Origin: Nesterenkonia sandarakina | Lineage (GTDB): Bacteria; Actinomycetota; Actinomycetes; Actinomycetales; Micrococcaceae | DNA length: 64,000 nucleotides | Direction of reading: 5' to 3' | Assembly: GCF_013410215.1 (NCBI RefSeq) | Contig: NZ_JACCFQ010000001.1 | Span: 1,860,001 to 1,924,000 of the forward strand | Part shown: in pieces, positions 5,315-40,392 of the stretch | How positions within the stretch are numbered: the first letter of the stretch is position 1 | Layout: every line of letters begins with the position of its first letter | The notes under the pieces: generated by a model | Database searches by the model: none | What the model was told of the DNA's origin: nothing | Seen by the model: only the letters and a program-made list of their open reading frames with translations | Translations under genes and position numbers: made by a program

Positions 5315-6373
5315 GTGTCCAAGAATGAGAAGAACCCCCACCGGCTCGATGTCCCCCTGGACGGGGTCCGCGGACCCAAGGGCGCGAAGAAGACCCCCTT
5401 CGACGGAGACCCCCGGTCGCTGTGGCGGGTGAACCAGTACCCCTCCCCGTTCACCCTCGACGACGTTCCGACTCGGAAGAAGATCGGGTTCAAGGGCAAG
5501 AAGGACGACGGCGAAGACGCGCTCGCCGAACGCGGCGAGATGCTCGCGGACCTGCAGGAGCTGATGTGGGCTCACGTGGTCTCCGCCTCCGAGACCGATC
5601 AGCGCGAGGTGGCCAAGGCCATCGCCACCCGGGTTCCGCGCCGTACCCCGCAGGAGAAGGCCCGCCGCGAGGAGCTGTTCTCTCCGGCGGTGGAAGAAGC
5701 GCTGAGCAAGCTGGCCCGCGGACCCCGGGTGCTGCTGGTGCTCCAGGGCATGGACGCCGCCGGCAAGGGCGGAGTGGTCAAGCAGGTGGTCACCTCCATG
5801 GACCCGATGGGGGTTGAGGTGGCCGGATTCGGCAAACCCACCCCGGCGGAGCAGCGCGAGCACTACCTGGAGCGGGTCATCCGGCGCCTGCCGCGGCCAG
5901 GTCACGTGGGCGTCTTCGACCGCTCCCACTACGAGGACGTCCTGGTTCCCAGCATCACCGGCACTGAAAGCCCGGAGGAGGTCGATCGTCGCATCGAGGC
6001 GCTGATCCTCTTCGAACGCGAACTGGTCCGGCTGGGCTTCGTCATCATCAAGGTCAAGCTGCTGATCTCCCAGGAGGAACAGCTGGACCGGCTGGTCTCC
6101 CGGCTGGACCGGGAAGAGAAGCACTGGAAGTACGACCCCTCCGACGCCGACGCGCGGGCCGAGTTCGACACCTACCAGGAGCTCTACTCGCGGGTCATGG
6201 AAGCCACCGACGCCGACCACGCCCCCTGGCATGCGATCGGCGCAGACCGCAAGTGGTACTCCCGGCTCGCAGTCCAGGAGCTGCTCATCGCCGCGTTCTC
6301 GGACCTGAAGCTGCGCTGGCCCGCAGCGGATTATGACGTGGAGGCCGAGCGCGAGCGGCTGCTGAAGTCCTGA
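5315..6373 (+). CDS. ppk2: Polyphosphate kinase 2 family protein
   Basis: Transfers phosphate between polyphosphate and nucleotides (ADP/GDP or AMP). Walker A GMDAAGKGG is at residues 145-153 and the Walker B/lid region FDRSHYED at 201-208; both are diagnostic of PPK2. At 352 residues it carries about 100 residues of N-terminal extension before the catalytic core, as in many actinobacterial members. The start is GTG at 5315 with AAGGAG six bases upstream. Whether it favours NDP synthesis or NMP phosphorylation cannot be decided from sequence alone. Confidence 0.93.
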   Translation: MSKNEKNPHRLDVPLDGVRGPKGAKKTPFDGDPRSLWRVNQYPSPFTLDDVPTRKKIGFKGKKDDGEDALAERGEMLADLQELMWAHVVSASETDQREVAKAIATRVPRRTPQEKARREELFSPAVEEALSKLARGPRVLLVLQGMDAAGKGGVVKQVVTSMDPMGVEVAGFGKPTPAEQREHYLERVIRRLPRPGHVGVFDRSHYEDVLVPSITGTESPEEVDRRIEALILFERELVRLGFVIIKVKLLISQEEQLDRLVSRLDREEKHWKYDPSDADARAEFDTYQELYSRVMEATDADHAPWHAIGADRKWYSRLAVQELLIAAFSDLKLRWPAADYDVEAERERLLKS

Positions 6374-6384
6374 GGCCCCACTGA

Positions 6385-6415
6385 CCGGGCGGCACCTAGG
6401 GGAGGGGCCGCCCGG
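6385..6415. terminator. Candidate bidirectional terminator hairpin
   Basis: A perfect 9-bp inverted repeat, CCGGGCGGC (6385-6393) and GCCGCCCGG (6407-6415), lies between the convergent ppk2 and DUF805 genes. There is no T-tract, so it is a probable rather than proven terminator. The right arm overlaps the last codons of the DUF805 gene. Confidence 0.5.
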
Positions 6416-6875
6416 CGTCCGGGTTCTGGTGGTGGGCCTCGAGCGGGTACTCCCACTTGTGGCTTCGCCTGTCGAGGCGCGTGGGCAACAACATCAGGAT
6501 CAGAACGGTCAGGGGGCCGAACACGGGGACCAGGACCACGAAGTACAACGGTCCGGGGAATCCGGCATCGTGCAGTCTGCGCCAGCTCAGGGCGAGCATC
6601 GGGAGAAACGTGACGAGACCCCAGACGAAGGTCGCCAGCGAGCTGGCCAGGACCAGTCCCTCGACGTTCCCGGTGCCCTGAGTCAGGTCGAAGTATCCAA
6701 GAGCAGGGTCATAGGTACGCAGGTAGGGGATCGAGATCAGCCCGCCCACGACGGTCATGAAGAGCTGAACCCACCAGTATTCGCTGCGCGAGGCGTACCC
6801 CTTGAAATGGGCGTACTTCCCGAAAAAGCGCCGCACGGCTTGGCCCAGCGTGGCGCCGTAGAGCGGCTCATTCAA
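6396..6875 (-). CDS. DUF805 family inner-membrane protein
   Basis: A 159-residue protein with the DUF805 pattern: an N-terminal amphipathic region (FFGKYAHFKGYASRSEYWW), four hydrophobic helices and the LSWRRLHDAGFPG loop conserved in the family (E. coli YhaH/YhaI type). The molecular role of the family is unknown. Transcription converges with ppk2. Confidence 0.9.
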   Translation of the reverse strand: MNEPLYGATLGQAVRRFFGKYAHFKGYASRSEYWWVQLFMTVVGGLISIPYLRTYDPALGYFDLTQGTGNVEGLVLASSLATFVWGLVTFLPMLALSWRRLHDAGFPGPLYFVVLVPVFGPLTVLILMLLPTRLDRRSHKWEYPLEAHHQNPDAGRPLP

Positions 6876-7041: not shown

Positions 7042-7362
7042 ATGTCGTCTCCAGAGACCAAAGCCGCAGTCAGGAATTTCGTTGCTGAGCGCGAATGGGG
7101 GCAGTTCCACAGCCCTGGAAACCTCATCAAAAGCATTGCCATAGAGTCCGGCGAACTTTTGGAGTGCATGCAGTGGAGTGAAGACATTGATCCAGCGCGC
7201 GTCCGTTCGGAGTTGGCTGACGTCCTGACCTACGCCTATCTCTTGGCCGATCGCATGGGCTGGGACCCTGACGAAGTCGTCCTAGCTAAGCTTCACGAGA
7301 CCAGCGCCAAGTACCCGGTAGAGAAGGCGAGGGGGAAGAGCACCAAGTATGACCAGCTTTGA
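7042..7362 (+). CDS. MazG-like nucleotide pyrophosphohydrolase
   Basis: A 106-residue all-alpha NTP pyrophosphohydrolase of the MazG/RS21-C6 (dCTPase) type, expected to cleave a nucleoside triphosphate to the monophosphate plus PPi. The metal-binding EXXE (Glu35, Glu38, with Glu41 close by) and EXXD (Glu57, Asp60) are intact, and the WGQFHSPGNL opening is typical of the subgroup. The last 14 bases overlap the next gene, which indicates translational coupling with the GIY-YIG/DUF2075 protein. Base composition is lower in GC than the flanking housekeeping genes, consistent with horizontal transfer. Only a weak ribosome binding site precedes ATG 7042. Confidence 0.88.
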   Translation: MSSPETKAAVRNFVAEREWGQFHSPGNLIKSIAIESGELLECMQWSEDIDPARVRSELADVLTYAYLLADRMGWDPDEVVLAKLHETSAKYPVEKARGKSTKYDQL

Positions 7363-9196
7363 GATCCGGTCCTACCCCTTCGTCAAGAATGCGGTCTCGA
7401 TTCTTTCTGACGGCGACGAGCGATACGGGAACTGGCCAGCTGTTTACACGCTACGCAACGACCGCTCGATCTATGTCGGTGAGTCACGGAACGTTGCCTC
7501 CAGGATTCACCAGCACCTCGCGTCGGGGACGAAAGACGCGATGCAACACGTTCAGATCATCCTGGATGACACTTTCAACAAGTCTGCTGCACTCGACCTC
7601 GAAGCTTTTCTCATCGAGTATCTGGGCGGTGACAACCGCTACGCGTTACTCAATCGGAACAAGGGCATAGTCGACGGGGACTACTTCGATCGGGCCAAAT
7701 ATCGAGAAACCTTCCGGGAGATCTTCGAGGATCTCCGAAGTAAAGGAATCTTCGAGCGATCCCTGCCAGAGATCCAGAACGACGACCTCTTCAAGCTATC
7801 CCCCTTCAAGGCGCTCACTCCGGAACAAGCTGTAGCTGTTGAGGACATTCTTCGAGATTTCTTTGGTCGGGATCCGGGCGAGGGCACGAATGTTCCCATC
7901 TTCGTGCAGGGAGATCCAGGTACTGGCAAGACCGTCGTTGCCATCTACCTGATGAAGCTGTTGGCCGATCTGGGAACTGCAGAAGACGCAGAGCTAGACA
8001 CGACCATTTACGATTCGGATTCACGATTCTCGGAGTTTTTCACAGCCGAGAATCGGGAACGCTTGAGTGCACTCTCGATCGGGTTCGTCGTTCCGCAACA
8101 GTCCCTGCGGGCCTCCGTCGCAGAGGTTTTCAAGCGCACCCCATACCTCGAGCGCTCCATGGTGCTCGATCCTTTCGCGGTAGGGGAGTCTGAAGAGCAC
8201 TTTGATGTTTTGGTCGTCGACGAAGCGCATCGGTTGAACCAGCGCGCCAACCAGCCTTCGGCAAACCAGAACTCGCGCTTCACCGAGATCAACCAGAGGT
8301 TATTCGGCAGCGACGAGAGCCACTACACGCAGTTGGACTGGATCAAGGAGAAGAGCGACCACCAGATCCTGTTTCTCGATCGCGCGCAAAGCGTGCGACC
8401 CGCTGATATCCCTCGCTCAACCTGGGAATCCCTGCTGAGCACTGCGAAGAAGGCGGACAGGCACCACGAGCTGCACTCACAGATGCGAGTCCAGGCTGGG
8501 CGGGGCTACATCGACTACGTCCGCGCCATACTGCGGTCTGAGGCTCCGGCTAGTCGCGCGTTCGCTGACTACGAGGTCGACATGTTCGAGGACTTCAAAT
8601 CGATGCACGATCGGGTTCTTGAGCGGGAAGCCGAACACGGACTTGCTCGGCTCGTCGCGGGCTATGCCTGGGAGTGGAGAAGCAAGAAGGACCGGAGCCT
8701 TCCCGACATCGTGCTCGATGGCCACGGACTTCAGTGGAATCGGACCACCAAGGACTGGATCAATTCAAGAACGTCGCTCGATGAAGTGGGGTCGATCCAC
8801 ACGGTTCAGGGATACGACCTGAACTATGCGGGAGTCATCATCGGCTCCGACCTGAGGTTCGATACCGAGCAACAACGGATCGTCTTCGATCGGTCCAACT
8901 ACTTCGACAAGAAGGGAAAAGAGAACAACCCCCGACTTGGCCTCGAGTTCAACGACGACGACTTGCTCGAGTACGTTATTAACATCTACGGGGTATTGCT
9001 CACCCGAGGAATCAAGGGAACGTACGTGTACGTCTGTGATCCTGACCTTCGTGAGTATCTCGCCCCCTACTTCACCCAAGTCAGGCGCAGGCACTCTAGG
9101 CCCGATCTTGGGAAAGCCCCTAGCAAGGCAATCGGTCCATCCGCGTCGGACGCCCCAGGCGTGGAGGCTCGGCAACGGCAAGAGGTTCGGGAATGA
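7349..9196 (+). CDS. GIY-YIG nuclease fused to a DUF2075 (SF1-like) helicase/ATPase
   Basis: A 615-residue two-domain protein. Residues about 25-105 are a GIY-YIG nuclease: VYTL (32-35), YVGES (42-46), an arginine at 52 and the catalytic glutamate in DLEAF (Glu85) are all present. Residues about 150-570 are a DUF2075 P-loop ATPase with Walker A GDPGTGKT (188-195), DEAHR Walker B (291-295), IHTVQGYDLNYAGV (483-496) and NIYGVLLTRG (545-554). The C-terminal 45 residues are basic and probably disordered. It starts inside the upstream MazG-like gene. Such fusions are known only as uncharacterised proteins, as far as I recall. A nucleic-acid-cleaving, ATP-driven role, probably anti-phage, is inference from architecture and context. 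Confidence 0.9.
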   Translation: MTSFEIRSYPFVKNAVSILSDGDERYGNWPAVYTLRNDRSIYVGESRNVASRIHQHLASGTKDAMQHVQIILDDTFNKSAALDLEAFLIEYLGGDNRYALLNRNKGIVDGDYFDRAKYRETFREIFEDLRSKGIFERSLPEIQNDDLFKLSPFKALTPEQAVAVEDILRDFFGRDPGEGTNVPIFVQGDPGTGKTVVAIYLMKLLADLGTAEDAELDTTIYDSDSRFSEFFTAENRERLSALSIGFVVPQQSLRASVAEVFKRTPYLERSMVLDPFAVGESEEHFDVLVVDEAHRLNQRANQPSANQNSRFTEINQRLFGSDESHYTQLDWIKEKSDHQILFLDRAQSVRPADIPRSTWESLLSTAKKADRHHELHSQMRVQAGRGYIDYVRAILRSEAPASRAFADYEVDMFEDFKSMHDRVLEREAEHGLARLVAGYAWEWRSKKDRSLPDIVLDGHGLQWNRTTKDWINSRTSLDEVGSIHTVQGYDLNYAGVIIGSDLRFDTEQQRIVFDRSNYFDKKGKENNPRLGLEFNDDDLLEYVINIYGVLLTRGIKGTYVYVCDPDLREYLAPYFTQVRRRHSRPDLGKAPSKAIGPSASDAPGVEARQRQEVRE

Positions 9197-9232
9197 GGAG
9201 GGGCGAGGAACCGAAGTTCCCCGCCCCTCCTC
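9195..9232. terminator. Long hairpin overlapping the helicase stop codon (bidirectional terminator candidate)
   Basis: Seventeen-base arms (9195-9211 and 9216-9232) pair with a single mismatch around a CGAA loop. The stem starts at the second base of the TGA stop of the GIY-YIG/DUF2075 gene and ends 13 bases before the convergent stress-protein stop. No T-run follows on the plus strand. Confidence 0.6.
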
Positions 9233-9245
9233 GCTCCGAGAATGA

Positions 9246-9722
9246 TTAGAGTTCCACGCGTCCCTGGTCACCCATGTTCGGGGTCTCTGAGGAGAGTGAG
9301 GCCTTCGCCATCTTCACGAGCGCGGCTGCCTTGCCCGGGCCCTCCCAGTACTGGGCGGTCTCCGGGGTCACCTCGATCAGCACGGCGTTGGGATCCTCGG
9401 GGCCGCCCTCGAAGTAAGCCTTCGGCCCCAGATCCCACAGCTCCTTCTTGCGCTTGAGATCATCAATCACCTGGGCGCTGCCGGCGATGGAGACCCAGGT
9501 GTGGGCATCTACGAAGCCGAGGTTGACCTCGCCCTCGCCGATGATGTCCTCGATCTTGTCCGAGTTCAGCGGGGTGAAGAACCAGAACTTGTGCTGGTCA
9601 TCGATCTCGGTGACGCCCATCGGGCGGGAGACGATCCGGTGGTTCTGGTCCACGGTGGTGAACATGCAGGTACCGATGCTGTTCAGCTTCTTGACGAGGT
9701 CGTTTGCAGTCATGTCAGTCAT
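9246..9722 (-). CDS. Pyridoxamine 5'-phosphate oxidase-fold general stress protein (FMN-binding split barrel)
   Basis: A 158-residue protein of the general stress protein 26 group. It shows the split-barrel pattern: TCMFTTVDQNHRIVSRPMG, then FWFFTPLNSDKIEDI and VNLGFVDAHTWVSIAGSA. Members bind FMN or FAD and are induced by stress; the substrate is usually unknown. AGGAG lies six bases upstream of ATG 9722, which supports this start over the internal Met4. It is convergent with the low-GC island and upstream of ligD in the same orientation. Confidence 0.88.
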   Translation of the reverse strand: MTDMTANDLVKKLNSIGTCMFTTVDQNHRIVSRPMGVTEIDDQHKFWFFTPLNSDKIEDIIGEGEVNLGFVDAHTWVSIAGSAQVIDDLKRKKELWDLGPKAYFEGGPEDPNAVLIEVTPETAQYWEGPGKAAALVKMAKASLSSETPNMGDQGRVEL

Positions 9723-9810
9723 ATCGATCTCCTGGGTTGGGTATGTGCGACTTCATTCGCAGTCTACGGATCAGAGGTCTCGAGTACAGCGCGTCCGCGC
9801 TGAGCAAAGT

Positions 9811-12273
9811 TCAGGGTCCGTTGCTAGTCCGGACTCCGCGCCAGGTCGGGTGCCGCAGACGGTTGTCCCTGGTCACCCCGGAATGCCGCACTTCGGCGGT
9901 CAGCTTCGGTGTCACCCAGGTGGCATCTGAGGAGTCCTCGGCCGGTACGTCATCCACCGGGGCGGTCTTGCGCACCAGCTTCTCCAGCTGCGCGCGGAGA
10001 TCAATGAGTTCCACGTCGCTGAAGCCGGTGCCGACCCGCCCGGCGTAGTGGAGGTCGCCGTCGTCGTCGGTCATGCCTAAGAGCAGGGAGCCGAAGGTCT
10101 TGGCTCGGCCACCCTTGCCCTGGCGCCAGCCGATGATCACCACCTCGGCGTGGCTCTCGTGCTTGAGCTTCACCCAATCCTCAGAGCGTCGCCCGGCGTG
10201 GTAAGGACTGTCGGCGCGCTTGGCCAAGACTCCCTCGATCTTGAGCTCCAGGCTGACCTCCATGGCCTTGTCCAAGGAATCGCCGAGGTTGCCCGGGACC
10301 TGCACATGCTTCCCGCTCTCAGCGAGCTGTTCAAGGATCTCCCGGCGGCGTACATAGGGCTCGCCCGTGAGGTCGCCGTGCTCGGCGGTGTGCAGCATGT
10401 CGAAGAGCATCAGGTGCACCGGGATCTTCTTCGCGGTCTCCTCGATCTCCTTGGCCTTGGTCAGCTTGCCGCGGCGCTGCAGGAGACCGAAGTCCGGGCG
10501 GCTGCCGGAGTTCAGGGCGACGATCTCACCGTCCACCACGGTGCCTGGCGGGACAAGGTCTGCGATCTCAGAAAGTTCGGGGAAGGTCTGGGTGAAGTCC
10601 TTGCCGTTGCGGCTGCGGATCTCCACCCGGCCATCGGGGTGCACCGCGGCGATGGTGCGGTAGCCGTCCCACTTGCCTTCCAGCACCCACCCCTTACCGC
10701 GGATATCGGTGGGCTTACCGGGGGAGGCGAGCATGGGGGAAGGCAGCGGCTCAGGGAACTCGGCGTCCTCGTCGGTCTCGCCGCGCTTGCCTGAGCGCTT
10801 CGTGGACTTCTTCGGCGTAGACGAGGTCCTCGATGTCTTCTCAGCCTTTGGCTGGTCCTTGGTCATCCGGATCAGCCAGTTCCTGCCGGCCTCATCGGTC
10901 TGCACCAGCGCGTAGCGGCGCGGCACCCCGCCCAGGCCGCCGTCGGGTGCCCCGTGCAGGACGAAGACCACCTTGCCGGAGCCCTCGGCCTGCTCCCACT
11001 TCTCGATCTCCACGGTGCCGGAGTCCCAGATGGTCACCTCGCCGCCGCCGTATTCGTTCTTGGGGATGGTGCCCTCGAACTCGGCGTACTCGATGGGGTG
11101 GTCCTCGGTCATCACCGCCAGTCGCTGCTGCCCGACCTCCAATGGAGGCCCCTTGGGCACCGCCCAGGAGACCAGCACCCCATTGCGCTCCAACCGGGTG
11201 TCATAGTGCAGCGCGGTGGCGTGGTGTTCCTGGACCACGAAGATCGGGTCTTCGCACCGGGAGGCAGGGGAGTCAGAGGGGACCGGCTCAGGGGTTTTCG
11301 CGGCGTCGCGCATCGACCGGTAGGTCGACAGCGCATCCTGCGTCTCCGGCAGGGCGTCCGCGGCGTCGTCGTCGGCGGTGAAGTCAGCCAACGGTTCCGG
11401 GCCCTCAGCGATGCGGTCCATGACCTGGTGCATGTCCAGCTGGGCGAGGTCCGGATCTTCAAGCTCCTCCCAGGTCCGCGGGGCGGCAGCATAGGGACCC
11501 TCAGCTGATCCGGGGCGGCCGCGCAGCGAGTAGGGGGCGATGGTGGTCTTGTTGCGGTTGTTCTGCGACCAGTCGATGAGCACCTTGCCCTGGCGCAGGG
11601 ACTTCTTCATATCGCTGACCACCGCCTCTGGGTGATCGGCCTCCAGCGCCTTGGCCAGCTCATGGGCCACCTGGGAGACCTGCTCCGAGGTGTAGCCGCC
11701 GTTGAGCGCGGCGTAGAGGTGGATGCCCTTGGACCCGGAGGTGACCGGGACCGAGGGCAGGTTCATCTCATCGAGGATCTCGCGGCACCAGCGGGCCACC
11801 TGCGCGCAGTCGGCGAGGTCCGCGCCGGGGCCAGGGTCCAGGTCAAGGACGAGCCGGTCCGGGTTCTGCGGCTCGCCCTTGGCGTTGAAGCGCCACTGCG
11901 GGACGTGAATCTCCAGGGCGCCGACCTGTCCGAACCAGGCCAGCACGGCGGGTTCGTTGGCCAGCGGGTAGGTGTTGCTGTGATCGGAGTGCTCCAGCTC
12001 CTGGCGCGGCACCCAGGCCGGTGCGGAGTCTTCGAGGTTCTTCCGGAAGAACGGCTCGTTGGGCTTCTCGGCACTGCCGACGCCGTCGGGCCAGCGTTTT
12101 CGGGTGGCGGGCCGATTCCTGACATGCGGGATCATCGCGTCGGCGACGGTCTGGAAGTAGTGGACGACCTCACCCTTGGTGGTCCCCGAGGCGGGGAAGA
12201 GGATCTTGTCGAGGTTGGAAAGCCGAAGCTTGTGACCGCCGACGGTGACGGTCTGCTGTCGGTTGCTTGCCAT
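9811..12273 (-). CDS. ligD: Multifunctional ATP-dependent DNA ligase LigD (polymerase-phosphoesterase-ligase)
   Basis: The central enzyme of bacterial non-homologous end joining. Domain order is polymerase (about 1-300; LDLDPG at 143-148, SGSKGIHLY at 179-187), 3'-phosphoesterase (about 340-470; HYDTR at 356-360) and ATP-dependent ligase (about 515-815; KWDGYR at 534-539 with the adenylated lysine). The Pol-PE-Lig order is the mycobacterial arrangement. A Ser/Lys/Thr-rich linker (480-500) joins the last two domains. At 820 residues it is complete. Its partner Ku is encoded on the opposite strand at 31.7 kb rather than next to it. Confidence 0.96.
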   Translation of the reverse strand: MASNRQQTVTVGGHKLRLSNLDKILFPASGTTKGEVVHYFQTVADAMIPHVRNRPATRKRWPDGVGSAEKPNEPFFRKNLEDSAPAWVPRQELEHSDHSNTYPLANEPAVLAWFGQVGALEIHVPQWRFNAKGEPQNPDRLVLDLDPGPGADLADCAQVARWCREILDEMNLPSVPVTSGSKGIHLYAALNGGYTSEQVSQVAHELAKALEADHPEAVVSDMKKSLRQGKVLIDWSQNNRNKTTIAPYSLRGRPGSAEGPYAAAPRTWEELEDPDLAQLDMHQVMDRIAEGPEPLADFTADDDAADALPETQDALSTYRSMRDAAKTPEPVPSDSPASRCEDPIFVVQEHHATALHYDTRLERNGVLVSWAVPKGPPLEVGQQRLAVMTEDHPIEYAEFEGTIPKNEYGGGEVTIWDSGTVEIEKWEQAEGSGKVVFVLHGAPDGGLGGVPRRYALVQTDEAGRNWLIRMTKDQPKAEKTSRTSSTPKKSTKRSGKRGETDEDAEFPEPLPSPMLASPGKPTDIRGKGWVLEGKWDGYRTIAAVHPDGRVEIRSRNGKDFTQTFPELSEIADLVPPGTVVDGEIVALNSGSRPDFGLLQRRGKLTKAKEIEETAKKIPVHLMLFDMLHTAEHGDLTGEPYVRRREILEQLAESGKHVQVPGNLGDSLDKAMEVSLELKIEGVLAKRADSPYHAGRRSEDWVKLKHESHAEVVIIGWRQGKGGRAKTFGSLLLGMTDDDGDLHYAGRVGTGFSDVELIDLRAQLEKLVRKTAPVDDVPAEDSSDATWVTPKLTAEVRHSGVTRDNRLRHPTWRGVRTSNGP

Positions 12274-38602: not shown

Positions 38603-39304
38603 ATGAACACTTCAGCGGGTCGGGTCGGTGCGGTGGGTCTTGCGGTGATTCTCAGCTTTGCTCTGAGCTCCTGCGGGGGTGAGGATGCGGGGGATGAGCC
38701 GGACGGGGCGGCTGGTGAGCCGAGTCCTGCGGAGTCTTCTGCGGCGGCTGGCGCGTCGGAACCCTCAGAGTCAAGCGGAGATGACGGTGGTGATCCGAGT
38801 GCTGAATCCTCGCCGACGCCGGTCGCTGCATCCTCGGAGGGGCCAGCGCAGAACTGGCCCGAGCCTGAGGTTCCGGATGAGATCTATGAAGAGACTCAAG
38901 AGGGCGCGCTGGCTGCGCTGGAGTATTGGTTTGAGGCGGACTTGTACATGCAACTCACGGGAGATTCTGCTGCGTTCGAGAGCTCGTCAGACTCGGACTG
39001 TGAGATATGCGCTGCACGAATTGGGCAGTTTCAGCAACTCTACGACGTCGATGAAGGGTGGCATGTCACCGAGGGAGCGTCGATTGAAGACCCGGTAGCA
39101 AGCAGTGTGTCGCAAGAAAACGAAGTATCGATCATCTTCACGATTCGTGAGGGCGAACTGCTCGAGTTCGATGCCGATGGTGAGCTCAGAGTCGAGGGCG
39201 CGGAGGAGTCTTTGGCGGGCCTCGAGGCATTGCTGCAATTCCAGGCCGATCGCTGGCAAGTCCTTGAGTTGTACTTTCCGGACGAAGTCGGAGCAGAGAG
39301 CTAA
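38603..39304 (+). CDS. DUF6318-type secreted lipoprotein
   Basis: A 233-residue lipoprotein with lipobox ALSSC (Cys24), an Asp/Glu/Ser/Pro-rich flexible linker (25-85) and a C-terminal domain opening WPEPEVPDEIYEETQEG and containing YWFEADLYMQLTGD and DCEIC. This is the pattern of the DUF6318 family, found in multiple copies in Micrococcaceae. The fold resembles small extracellular scaffold domains; function unknown. It is linked to the next gene by a TAATG overlap. GC content is lower than in neighbouring housekeeping genes. Confidence 0.82.
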   Translation: MNTSAGRVGAVGLAVILSFALSSCGGEDAGDEPDGAAGEPSPAESSAAAGASEPSESSGDDGGDPSAESSPTPVAASSEGPAQNWPEPEVPDEIYEETQEGALAALEYWFEADLYMQLTGDSAAFESSSDSDCEICAARIGQFQQLYDVDEGWHVTEGASIEDPVASSVSQENEVSIIFTIREGELLEFDADGELRVEGAEESLAGLEALLQFQADRWQVLELYFPDEVGAES

Positions 39305-40392
39305 TGCGAATCCTTGGCCGGGCTGCGCGGAGCCTGGGACTCATGTTCGTGCTGTGTGCATACTCCCTGATCCTCCTCACTCCTGAACCGGGTCACGGTT
39401 CACCATCGAGCGGTCAGTTGTGCAATACCTCTGCTCGTTGGACTGCTCCGGGCGAGGCACGGGCGAACATAAGCACTTGTCCTGTCCGAGGTGCACCGGA
39501 GAGAGCGCAACGAACGGATCGAAATCAAACTCCGGAGCGCCGCTCAGACGCTGGAGAGGCAACGGAGCCCCGGACTCGATCACGCCCCCCGTTGCCACCT
39601 GTGTATTGCTCCGAAGAGCGAGCCGTCGGACGGGAAGACTGCCGTGAGGTCTTGCTCGAGCAGTGTGATTCCCGGGATATGGAAGTCGTAAGTCCCGTCG
39701 ATACAGGCGAATTCTCAGGGTTCATTTGTGCCCCAGCTGCTGAAGCGGTGGAAATTGAAGAAGTAGAGCAAGAAGAACAAGTGGACGTCATGGCCCTCCT
39801 TCCCGGTGCCGTGGAAGAAGCTTTCGCCACCCTCCCGATCGTCGGAGGATCCGTCGAGTTCGAACCCGACCTGCTCGGTTTCGGATATCGAGGCCGCCAT
39901 ACGCATATGTTTGCGGACGTCCAGACGCAGACCCTGAACGAGAACCTGCTCGGCATCCCCGTCGAGATCCGGGTCAATCCGCAGAGCTTCTTGTGGGACT
40001 ACGGTGACGGCGCCAGTCGGGTGACCTACGATCCAGGCGAACCGATGCCGGACAGCTGGCAGGGCGAAACCGTCGTCAAGACCGACCAAGAGACACCCAC
40101 CAGCCACGTCTACACCGAGACCGGGCGATTCCCGGTCAGTCTGGCCACCACGTTTGTGGGCGAATACCGGGTCGGCGGCGGTCCCTGGATCGTCATCCCC
40201 GGCTCCGTCGACGTTCAAGCCTCACCGGGTGAGGCGGATATCTGGCGCGTCGCCGCCCGCAACGTCTCCGGATCTTGCCGCGACACCGTCGACTGGGGCT
40301 GCAACGGACCGGTGACCCTCGAACCCGGAGATACCCCGCCCAAGATCTTCGCCGACCAGTACGACGCTGACGGCAACTGGCTGGGGAACTGA
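39304..40392 (+). CDS. Secreted PKD-domain protein
   Basis: A 362-residue protein with an N-terminal signal/hydrophobic segment (about 8-27), a Cys-containing low-complexity region and a C-terminal PKD-like Ig fold (FLWDYGDGASRV, then SHVYTETGRFPVSLATTF). It starts at the last base of the lipoprotein stop (TAATG), so the two are translated as a pair and are likely exported together. PKD domains mediate surface adhesion or protein contact; the partner is probably the lipoprotein. Function unknown. Confidence 0.82.
   Translation: MRILGRAARSLGLMFVLCAYSLILLTPEPGHGSPSSGQLCNTSARWTAPGEARANISTCPVRGAPERAQRTDRNQTPERRSDAGEATEPRTRSRPPLPPVYCSEERAVGREDCREVLLEQCDSRDMEVVSPVDTGEFSGFICAPAAEAVEIEEVEQEEQVDVMALLPGAVEEAFATLPIVGGSVEFEPDLLGFGYRGRHTHMFADVQTQTLNENLLGIPVEIRVNPQSFLWDYGDGASRVTYDPGEPMPDSWQGETVVKTDQETPTSHVYTETGRFPVSLATTFVGEYRVGGGPWIVIPGSVDVQASPGEADIWRVAARNVSGSCRDTVDWGCNGPVTLEPGDTPPKIFADQYDADGNWLGN

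Follow-up and report, generated by a model that had tools for sequence, protein, structure and literature searches.

Gabija, among the described defence systems closest to the locus reported here, consists of the GajA nuclease, an OLD enzyme, and the GajB helicase. DefensePredictor names the MazG nucleoside triphosphate (NTP) pyrophosphohydrolase among its predicted, unvalidated defence domains; a word search of its main text did not find DUF2075, GIY-YIG, Schlafen or helicase, and its legends name no such partner (PMC13092281). We analysed a 64,000-nucleotide stretch of Nesterenkonia sandarakina DNA (the window; contig NZ_JACCFQ010000001.1, positions 1,860,001 to 1,924,000 of the forward strand), which is part of a 3.0-Mb genome. 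In the window a small gene for a MazG-like enzyme (MazG for short) overlaps a gene for a GIY-YIG nuclease fused to a helicase, with the coordinates and 14-base overlap originally predicted (Table 1). On balance, we read the pair as a mobile anti-phage module of two genes, so far uncharacterised: the nuclease-helicase would act on invader nucleic acid and an enzyme resembling deoxycytidine triphosphate (dCTP) pyrophosphatase on the nucleotide pool. The original prediction knew of no characterised system with exactly this pair; none was found in the open-access literature, a coverage outside which most subscription journals and most preprints lie, and the PADLOC database gave only weak single-gene candidates.

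The pair is a conserved unit across phyla, together more often than chance would give. A helicase-query search gave a MazG match in all 36 loci first examined (34 distinct; L002/L008 and L003/L030 are the same contigs), the closest named relative found being Nesterenkonia aurantiaca DSM 27373, whose helicase is 91% identical. Among 295 Micrococcaceae genomes the helicase was present in 45 (E 1e-10) and this MazG in 45 (profile search, E 1e-15); 42 genomes had both, adjacent in 42 of 42, the G082 pair being split by contig ends. Genomes with the helicase only were G218, where it is complete and alone, G199, with a C-terminal remnant, and G215, where a C-terminal helicase remnant lies ~0.8 kb from a C-terminal MazG remnant that falls below the search threshold. 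Genomes with MazG only were G158, in which a complete MazG is followed by a broken helicase, and G038 and G268, which have weaker matches and no helicase within the 20 kb examined. At phylum level the helicase was detected in 11 of 396 genomes at E 1e-30, this genome included, with MazG adjacent in 8 of the 11; the stretches read of G630, G657 and G423 showed no MazG, and the G423 helicase is a 296-residue fragment.

Bacillota, the phylum of the Erysipelotrichaceae locus L006, carry the helicase family in 73 of 392 genomes at E 1e-40. Thirty of the 77 matched places were read with a flank of ~1.5 kb, and 19 of these had MazG within it (13 upstream, 6 downstream). The pair also occurs on an archaeal (Halalkalicoccus) plasmid and on a Lactiplantibacillus plasmid. 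On a short contig of a Bacteriovorax metagenome-assembled genome MazG lies on the opposite strand facing a partial helicase, and on a Paenibacillus plasmid it lies ~10 kb from the helicase and is not adjacent. Examination covered 13 of 23 plasmid and phage matches, and a DNA-level search of plasmids for the region found no match. A scan of viral contigs gave at least five distant loci, of which L175 has MazG downstream on the same strand; among the matches listed, L173 (weak) and L176 have a MazG match on the other strand. With start codons picked by rule, an identical 14-bp overlap was measured in 33 of 66 pairs with MazG upstream. An apparent MazG-helicase fusion in L159 was rejected as an artefact of translation table 4, which reads TGA as Trp; table 11 gives two separate open reading frames.

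Some records labelled as phage carry the pair as well. L054 (MT836409.1, 10.6 kb, of faecal origin, labelled Bacteriophage sp.) holds it together with a type IV restriction-like gene, and looks more like a fragment of a bacterial defence island than a phage. L055 (Microcystis phage Mwe-JY31, a 22-kb record) has MazG and a PD-(D/E)XK-type helicase at 8949-11155, with a TPR protein and a ParA-like protein as neighbours; this is a copy carried by a phage or else a plasmid under the wrong label.

The small protein matched the MazG-like family PF12643 (Pfam, 7e-18, 65.1 bits against a cut-off of 27), and the four residues of its EXXE...EXXD metal-binding motif (E35, E38, E57 and D60) are invariant across 42 aligned relatives. 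The original description as a MazG-like pyrophosphohydrolase holds to that extent. Profile and model together place the enzyme in the dCTP pyrophosphatase 1 type rather than with MazG proper, closest to dCTP pyrophosphatase 1 and not to E. coli MazG. The 42-row profile matched an archaeal pyrophosphatase structure (4qgp, 1.7e-30) and then dCTP pyrophosphatase 1/RS21-C6 (8e-29), and E. coli MazG was absent from its 16 matches at E 0.001. An AlphaFold2 model (mean pLDDT 89.6) gave mouse dCTPase as the top Foldseek match (6sqw, 8.7e-6, 36% identity), with E. coli MazG ranked 24th (0.048). In the profile alignment Glu63, Glu66, Glu95 and Asp98 of DCTPP1 align with E35, E38, E57 and D60, and Trp47, Trp73 and Tyr102 with W19, W45 and Y64; W19 is invariant, and W45 and Y64 are kept in at least 90% of the 42 rows. 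The small protein is quite probably a real NTP or deoxynucleoside triphosphate (dNTP) pyrophosphohydrolase, and a dCTP-type enzyme is likely.

The larger protein matched the SLFN-g3_helicase profile PF09848, which we take to be the former DUF2075, over its full length (2.5e-67, 228 bits, profile positions 4-354 of 354), and its Walker A and B residues (G188, G191-T-G-K194 and D291-E292) are invariant in 37 aligned helicases. GIY-YIG nucleases are marked by two Tyr motifs and by a catalytic Arg, Glu and Asn. The window protein has these residues, with Y33, Y42, G44, R52, E85 and N102 invariant in the same alignment, and its GIY-YIG match (PF01541, 0.00018, 22.2 bits) lies just under the cut-off of 22.6. 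The catalytic residues of both proteins are thus intact, as first proposed, and Glu38, Glu85 and Lys194 had been named correctly. Pfam gave no match to the N-terminal Schlafen core nuclease domain at E 0.01; the N terminus is the GIY-YIG domain. A structure model (mean pLDDT 86.8) resembles Upf1, RecD, SLFN11 and Dna2 at TM-scores of ~0.3.

In some relatives a segment with the motif [RK][IV]D-F...(I/V)ELKQW takes the place of the GIY-YIG domain. Pfam has no name for this segment, which we take from its motifs to be a PD-(D/E)XK nuclease. A maximum-likelihood tree of 87 helicase cores, rooted at the midpoint and with long branches flagged by the program, separated 21 PD-(D/E)XK-like rows, as one well supported group, from 64 GIY-YIG rows. 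Two rows fell outside both groups, one of them (L052) GIY-YIG by Pfam, and the sorting by nuclease left 9 of the 87 rows as "other" (truncated or variant motif). MazG accompanies both nuclease types, including at least 14 of the 21 rows of the PD-(D/E)XK clade. Across 73 pairs the distances of MazG and helicase were correlated with a Mantel r of 0.66, a value that none of 999 permutations reached, with species relatedness contributing. The correlation was also seen within the PD-(D/E)XK subset (14 rows, r 0.58, 5 of 999 permutations as high) and within the GIY subset (23 rows from an incomplete sorting, r 0.85, 0 of 999). As judged from these sequences, the nuclease domain is exchangeable on one helicase family. 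Because the nuclease type differs while MazG and helicase stay, cutting would be needed but its chemistry would not.

Known defence genes lie near the pair. PADLOC models were run against 245 of 246 chosen neighbours of 20 helicase loci, the one dropped being the MazG itself (E 1e-20; 18 loci with MazG beside, L090 and L099 without), and against 246 of 250 proteins from 20 control stretches of the same genomes. Among the matches listed, two neighbouring proteins matched type IV enzymes, and there were matches to DRT9, PsyrT, DpdF, DpdE, DrmD, AbiEii, HEC-06, SoFic and methyltransferase models, to mad3 (5) and to the kinase-type PD-T4-6 (1). The matches listed come from at most the top 25 families of each scan, out of 37 and 116 families near the loci and 6 and 36 in the controls; these are not counts of systems, because several models can match one protein and the assignment of proteins to models is not given. 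The mad3 matches were discarded as evidence of defence, being equally common in controls (5) and near helicase loci (3 + 2), and the mad3-scoring gene of L002 is an ABC transporter by Pfam. The kinase-type matches (PD-T4-6, mad6 and C3a189) were likewise discarded, with three control proteins against one near helicase loci (PD-T4-6).

A type IV enzyme, presumably SauUSI-like, lies near the helicase in 4 of 40 20-kb stretches (L081, L082, L085 and L111) against 0 of 20 controls, which taken alone is no significant difference, and it also occurs in L052, L054, L144 and L146. It is present in 103 of 285 Micrococcaceae genomes (E 1e-40; a slightly smaller sample than the 295). Seventeen of the 42 pair genomes also have the enzyme, and in 5 of the 17 (G008, G058, G116, G146 and G264) it lies within 10 kb of the pair. 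The binomial p for this proximity is 6e-8, or 3e-6 counting G058/G116 once, assuming random placement and a 22-kb target in 3.5 Mb. Because defence genes cluster, the proximity indicates island association and not a dedicated partnership. Defence genes also neighbour four distant DUF2075 relatives (type III-A CRISPR genes, a CBASS-like gene set, restriction genes, or brxL), but no annotated MazG adjoins any of the four. In one plasmid, from Limosilactobacillus fermentum (L179, 8343-11055), a DUF2075 gene without adjacent annotated MazG is directly upstream of type III-A cas6 and cas10. In another, from Hymenobacter canadensis (L181, 7349-17924), two tandem DUF2075 genes follow restriction-modification genes, and ~6 kb beyond them lie genes for a TPR protein and a nucleotide pyrophosphohydrolase.

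The pair had been described as lying simply between unrelated housekeeping genes. The site proved to be variable, taking both defence and metabolic cargo. Among Nesterenkonia genomes without the pair, G089 has PglZ, PglX and BrxC of a BREX system at the same site, G066 a type IIG enzyme, and G253 methyltransferase and restriction genes of type I. In this comparison G089 and G276 are represented by the PNPOx side only, the cargo of G276 lies outside the scan, and the cargo scan covered 4, 3, 1 and 2 chosen proteins of L002, L114, L115 and L116. These site contents, the PADLOC neighbours and the type IV proximity give the association with known defence genes that is expected of an anti-phage system and that the original prediction looked for, as it did for the conserved adjacency found in Micrococcaceae, Bacillota and an archaeal plasmid.

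The distribution of the pair is patchy and horizontal. Nesterenkonia copies are scattered over several places of the helicase tree, and two genomes, G165 and G123, have the pair on one contig and the PNPOx homologue (57 and 61% identical) on another. Decayed copies comprise L185 (G158), with complete MazG and broken helicase, L188 (G215), with remnants of both genes, and L112/L117 (G199), a helicase remnant at the Nesterenkonia site. Because of this pattern of gain and loss (tree scatter, different contigs, broken copies), defence genes fit better than housekeeping genes. In G218 (L090, 8847-9099) a tRNA-Ala gene (8847-8920) precedes the start of the MazG-less helicase copy by ~180 bp, a hint that the copy integrated next to the tRNA.

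The G+C content of the pair, given as low in the original prediction, is 56.75% against a mean of 67.9% (standard deviation 3.2%) for window genes of more than 150 residues in our own gene calling, among which the helicase gene is the lowest; the 60 bases from 7981 contain exactly the 27 G+C (0.45) reported. The hairpin behind the helicase gene is real (-38.8 kcal/mol, z -7.6, as stable in 0 of 200 shuffles). Its role as the pair's own terminator is unproven because no T run was scored there, and it lies between convergent genes. The neighbouring genes in Table 1 carry names that we take from the look of their sequences. Elsewhere in the window GC is also low at 39001-40000 (0.585 in a single 1-kb bin), and the same gene calling placed no gene between 38502 and 39714.

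Table 1. Features of the gene pair and its flanks, in window coordinates
Feature	Position	Strand	Basis
MazG-like / dCTP-pyrophosphatase-1-like all-alpha NTP pyrophosphohydrolase (predicted), 106 residues	7042..7362	+	Pfam, alignment, profile, Foldseek
GIY-YIG nuclease fused to SLFN-g3 (DUF2075) superfamily 1 (SF1)-type helicase (predicted), 615 residues	7349..9196	+	Pfam, alignment, structure model
GIY-YIG domain, residues ~29-106; Y33, Y42-x-G44, R52, E85, N102	7433..7666	+	
SLFN-g3 helicase domain, residues 184-564; Walker A G188-K194, Walker B D291-E292	7898..9040	+	
14-bp overlap of MazG-like and helicase genes	7349..7362	+	
Long hairpin between convergent helicase and PNPOx-like genes	9190..9237	.	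folding
DUF805-like gene, left neighbour; with PPK2-like gene bounds the variable site	6396..6875	-	
PPK2-like gene, left bound of the variable site with DUF805-like gene	5315-6373		
PNPOx-like gene, right bound of the variable site	9246..9722	-	
LigD-like gene, next after PNPOx-like gene	9811-12273		

A role of the pair in defence is highly probable, and a specific division of labour between pool and cleavage is about evenly balanced. The helicase protein would load on nucleic acid of the invader, most probably phage DNA as it is being replicated; its SLFN-g3 SF1 motor would drive it along, and the N-terminal nuclease domain (GIY-YIG here, PD-(D/E)XK-like in other lineages) would cut. The co-translated dCTP-pyrophosphatase-1-like protein would convert dNTPs, probably dCTP or 5-substituted dCTP, to monophosphate and pyrophosphate, and would starve or sanitise the nucleotide pool required by the phage. 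The defence association of the anti-phage design first proposed is borne out; its "depletion plus cleavage" stays an inference, as do DNA as the target, a dCTP-type substrate, joint action of both activities and a phage phenotype. A long shot within this reading is that phages with modified cytosine are countered at two levels. The partner would destroy 5-substituted dCTP (e.g. 5-hydroxymethyl-dCTP) before incorporation, and the nuclease-helicase, beside a methyl-directed type IV enzyme in several loci, would destroy DNA already carrying the modified cytosine. If true, a nucleotide-pool checkpoint would be genetically coupled to restriction of modified DNA.

Several observations weigh against an anti-phage module of this kind. 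No MazG lies within the ~1.5-kb flanks of 11 of the 30 Bacillota loci, or beside the helicases of G218, G630 and G657, so that MazG is not obligatory; because helicases without it survive, it may enhance or gate the activity rather than be essential. The control stretches match PADLOC models too (among the matches listed, mad3 5, kinase-type 3, MkoA 2, and single dGTPase, PDC-S37, RT_UG29, RTasDnaG-like and Hhe matches), and the type IV comparison with controls belongs here as well. The Nesterenkonia site is variable rather than purely defensive, because N. aurantiaca (L002) has ABC-transporter and luciferase-like genes there beside the pair. Finally, the pocket residue roles given for DCTPP1 come from docking, with His38 contacting cytosine (PMC4491611). 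This histidine is not kept here and aligns with Val10, which leaves the preference for dCTP unsure.

In an unlikely alternative MazG acts chiefly as a switch: the nuclease-helicase would be inhibited or activated by a (d)NTP or a modified nucleotide, whose level MazG would set. A comparable case is Gabija, in which nucleotide levels control GajA. The conserved adjacency and correlated divergence of pool enzyme and nuclease-helicase, the presence of MazG with both nuclease types and the ability of the helicase to exist alone would all suit such gating, but the Pfam scan gave no candidate regulatory nucleotide-binding domain besides the ATPase. It is improbable that the pair is a toxin-antitoxin-like or house-cleaning unit, in which the nuclease-helicase would be harmful and MazG would limit the damage or sanitise released nucleotides. 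A small upstream gene with a short overlap is common in toxin-antitoxin operons, and the pair has this layout. However, the reading is weakened because helicases without MazG survive: long open helicase frames have no MazG beside them in G218, G630 and G657, and of the 11 Bacillota loci without MazG all but L160, whose frame is short, have long ones, although a MazG farther off than the ~1.5-kb flanks is possible. The gene order is also variable, with both orders seen in Bacillota.

A host module for DNA repair or nucleotide sanitation without a role in defence, built from a UvrC-like GIY-YIG nuclease, a helicase and a dNTP pyrophosphatase, is doubtful to the same degree. Housekeeping relatives exist for GIY-YIG, SF1 helicase and DCTPP1-like enzymes alike, but the patchy occurrence (42 of 295 genomes), low GC, several tree places of the Nesterenkonia copies, broken copies (G158, G199 and G215) and defence-gene neighbourhoods speak against it. 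A chance neighbourhood private to this genome is refuted, because the two genes adjoin each other in 42 of the 295 Micrococcaceae genomes, at 19 of the 30 places read in Bacillota and on the archaeal plasmid.

If the pair is an anti-phage module, it represents a defence system without a name that extends over two or more bacterial phyla and to a haloarchaeal plasmid, and in which two known strategies, attack on the nucleotide pool and attack by a nuclease-helicase, are joined in one operon. An immune role would then fall to a bacterial relative of DCTPP1, a human enzyme that has been studied in depth. The combination of a single MazG-helicase core with either of two unrelated types of nuclease is in addition a natural experiment.

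Against known systems the pair compares as follows. PADLOC 2.0.0 has no model that matches the MazG partner at E 0.01. The window helicase gave partial matches, short of strong full-length ones, to PDC-S14 and PDC-S41 (1.4e-8 and 8.8e-8), which we take to be single-gene phage-defence candidates and which PADLOC lists as single genes. In the window protein it is the GIY-YIG part that PDC-S14 matches (1.4e-8), and PDC-S41 matches the PD-(D/E)XK-type relatives (L053, 2.2e-19; L055, 6.2e-19). The likeness of the small enzyme to DCTPP1/RS21-C6 extends to the fold, the EXXE...EXXD motif and the aromatic pocket (Trp47, Trp73 and Tyr102, here W19, W45 and Y64), whereas His38 is absent and the present enzyme is bacterial, linked to a nuclease-helicase gene and of predicted activity. 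With Gabija the pair shares two genes, a nuclease, an SF1 helicase and a possible nucleotide-pool link. Here, however, a single protein combines nuclease and helicase, its nuclease domain is of GIY-YIG or PD-(D/E)XK-like type and not OLD, and the second gene encodes a pyrophosphohydrolase; no Gabija model was among the PADLOC matches of the window pair at E 0.01. Another relative in design is a pair of a NUDIX gene and a PLD/DUF3427 helicase (L052:6273-9570; L085, which is G008), whose helicase protein matches the PADLOC type IV methyl-directed enzyme at 1.6e-262. NUDIX replaces MazG in it, and the helicase is a different one with a PLD nuclease, but it likewise joins a gene of a nucleotide-hydrolase family to a nuclease-helicase, has a 14-bp overlap in L052 too, and adjoins the present pair in both L052 and L085.

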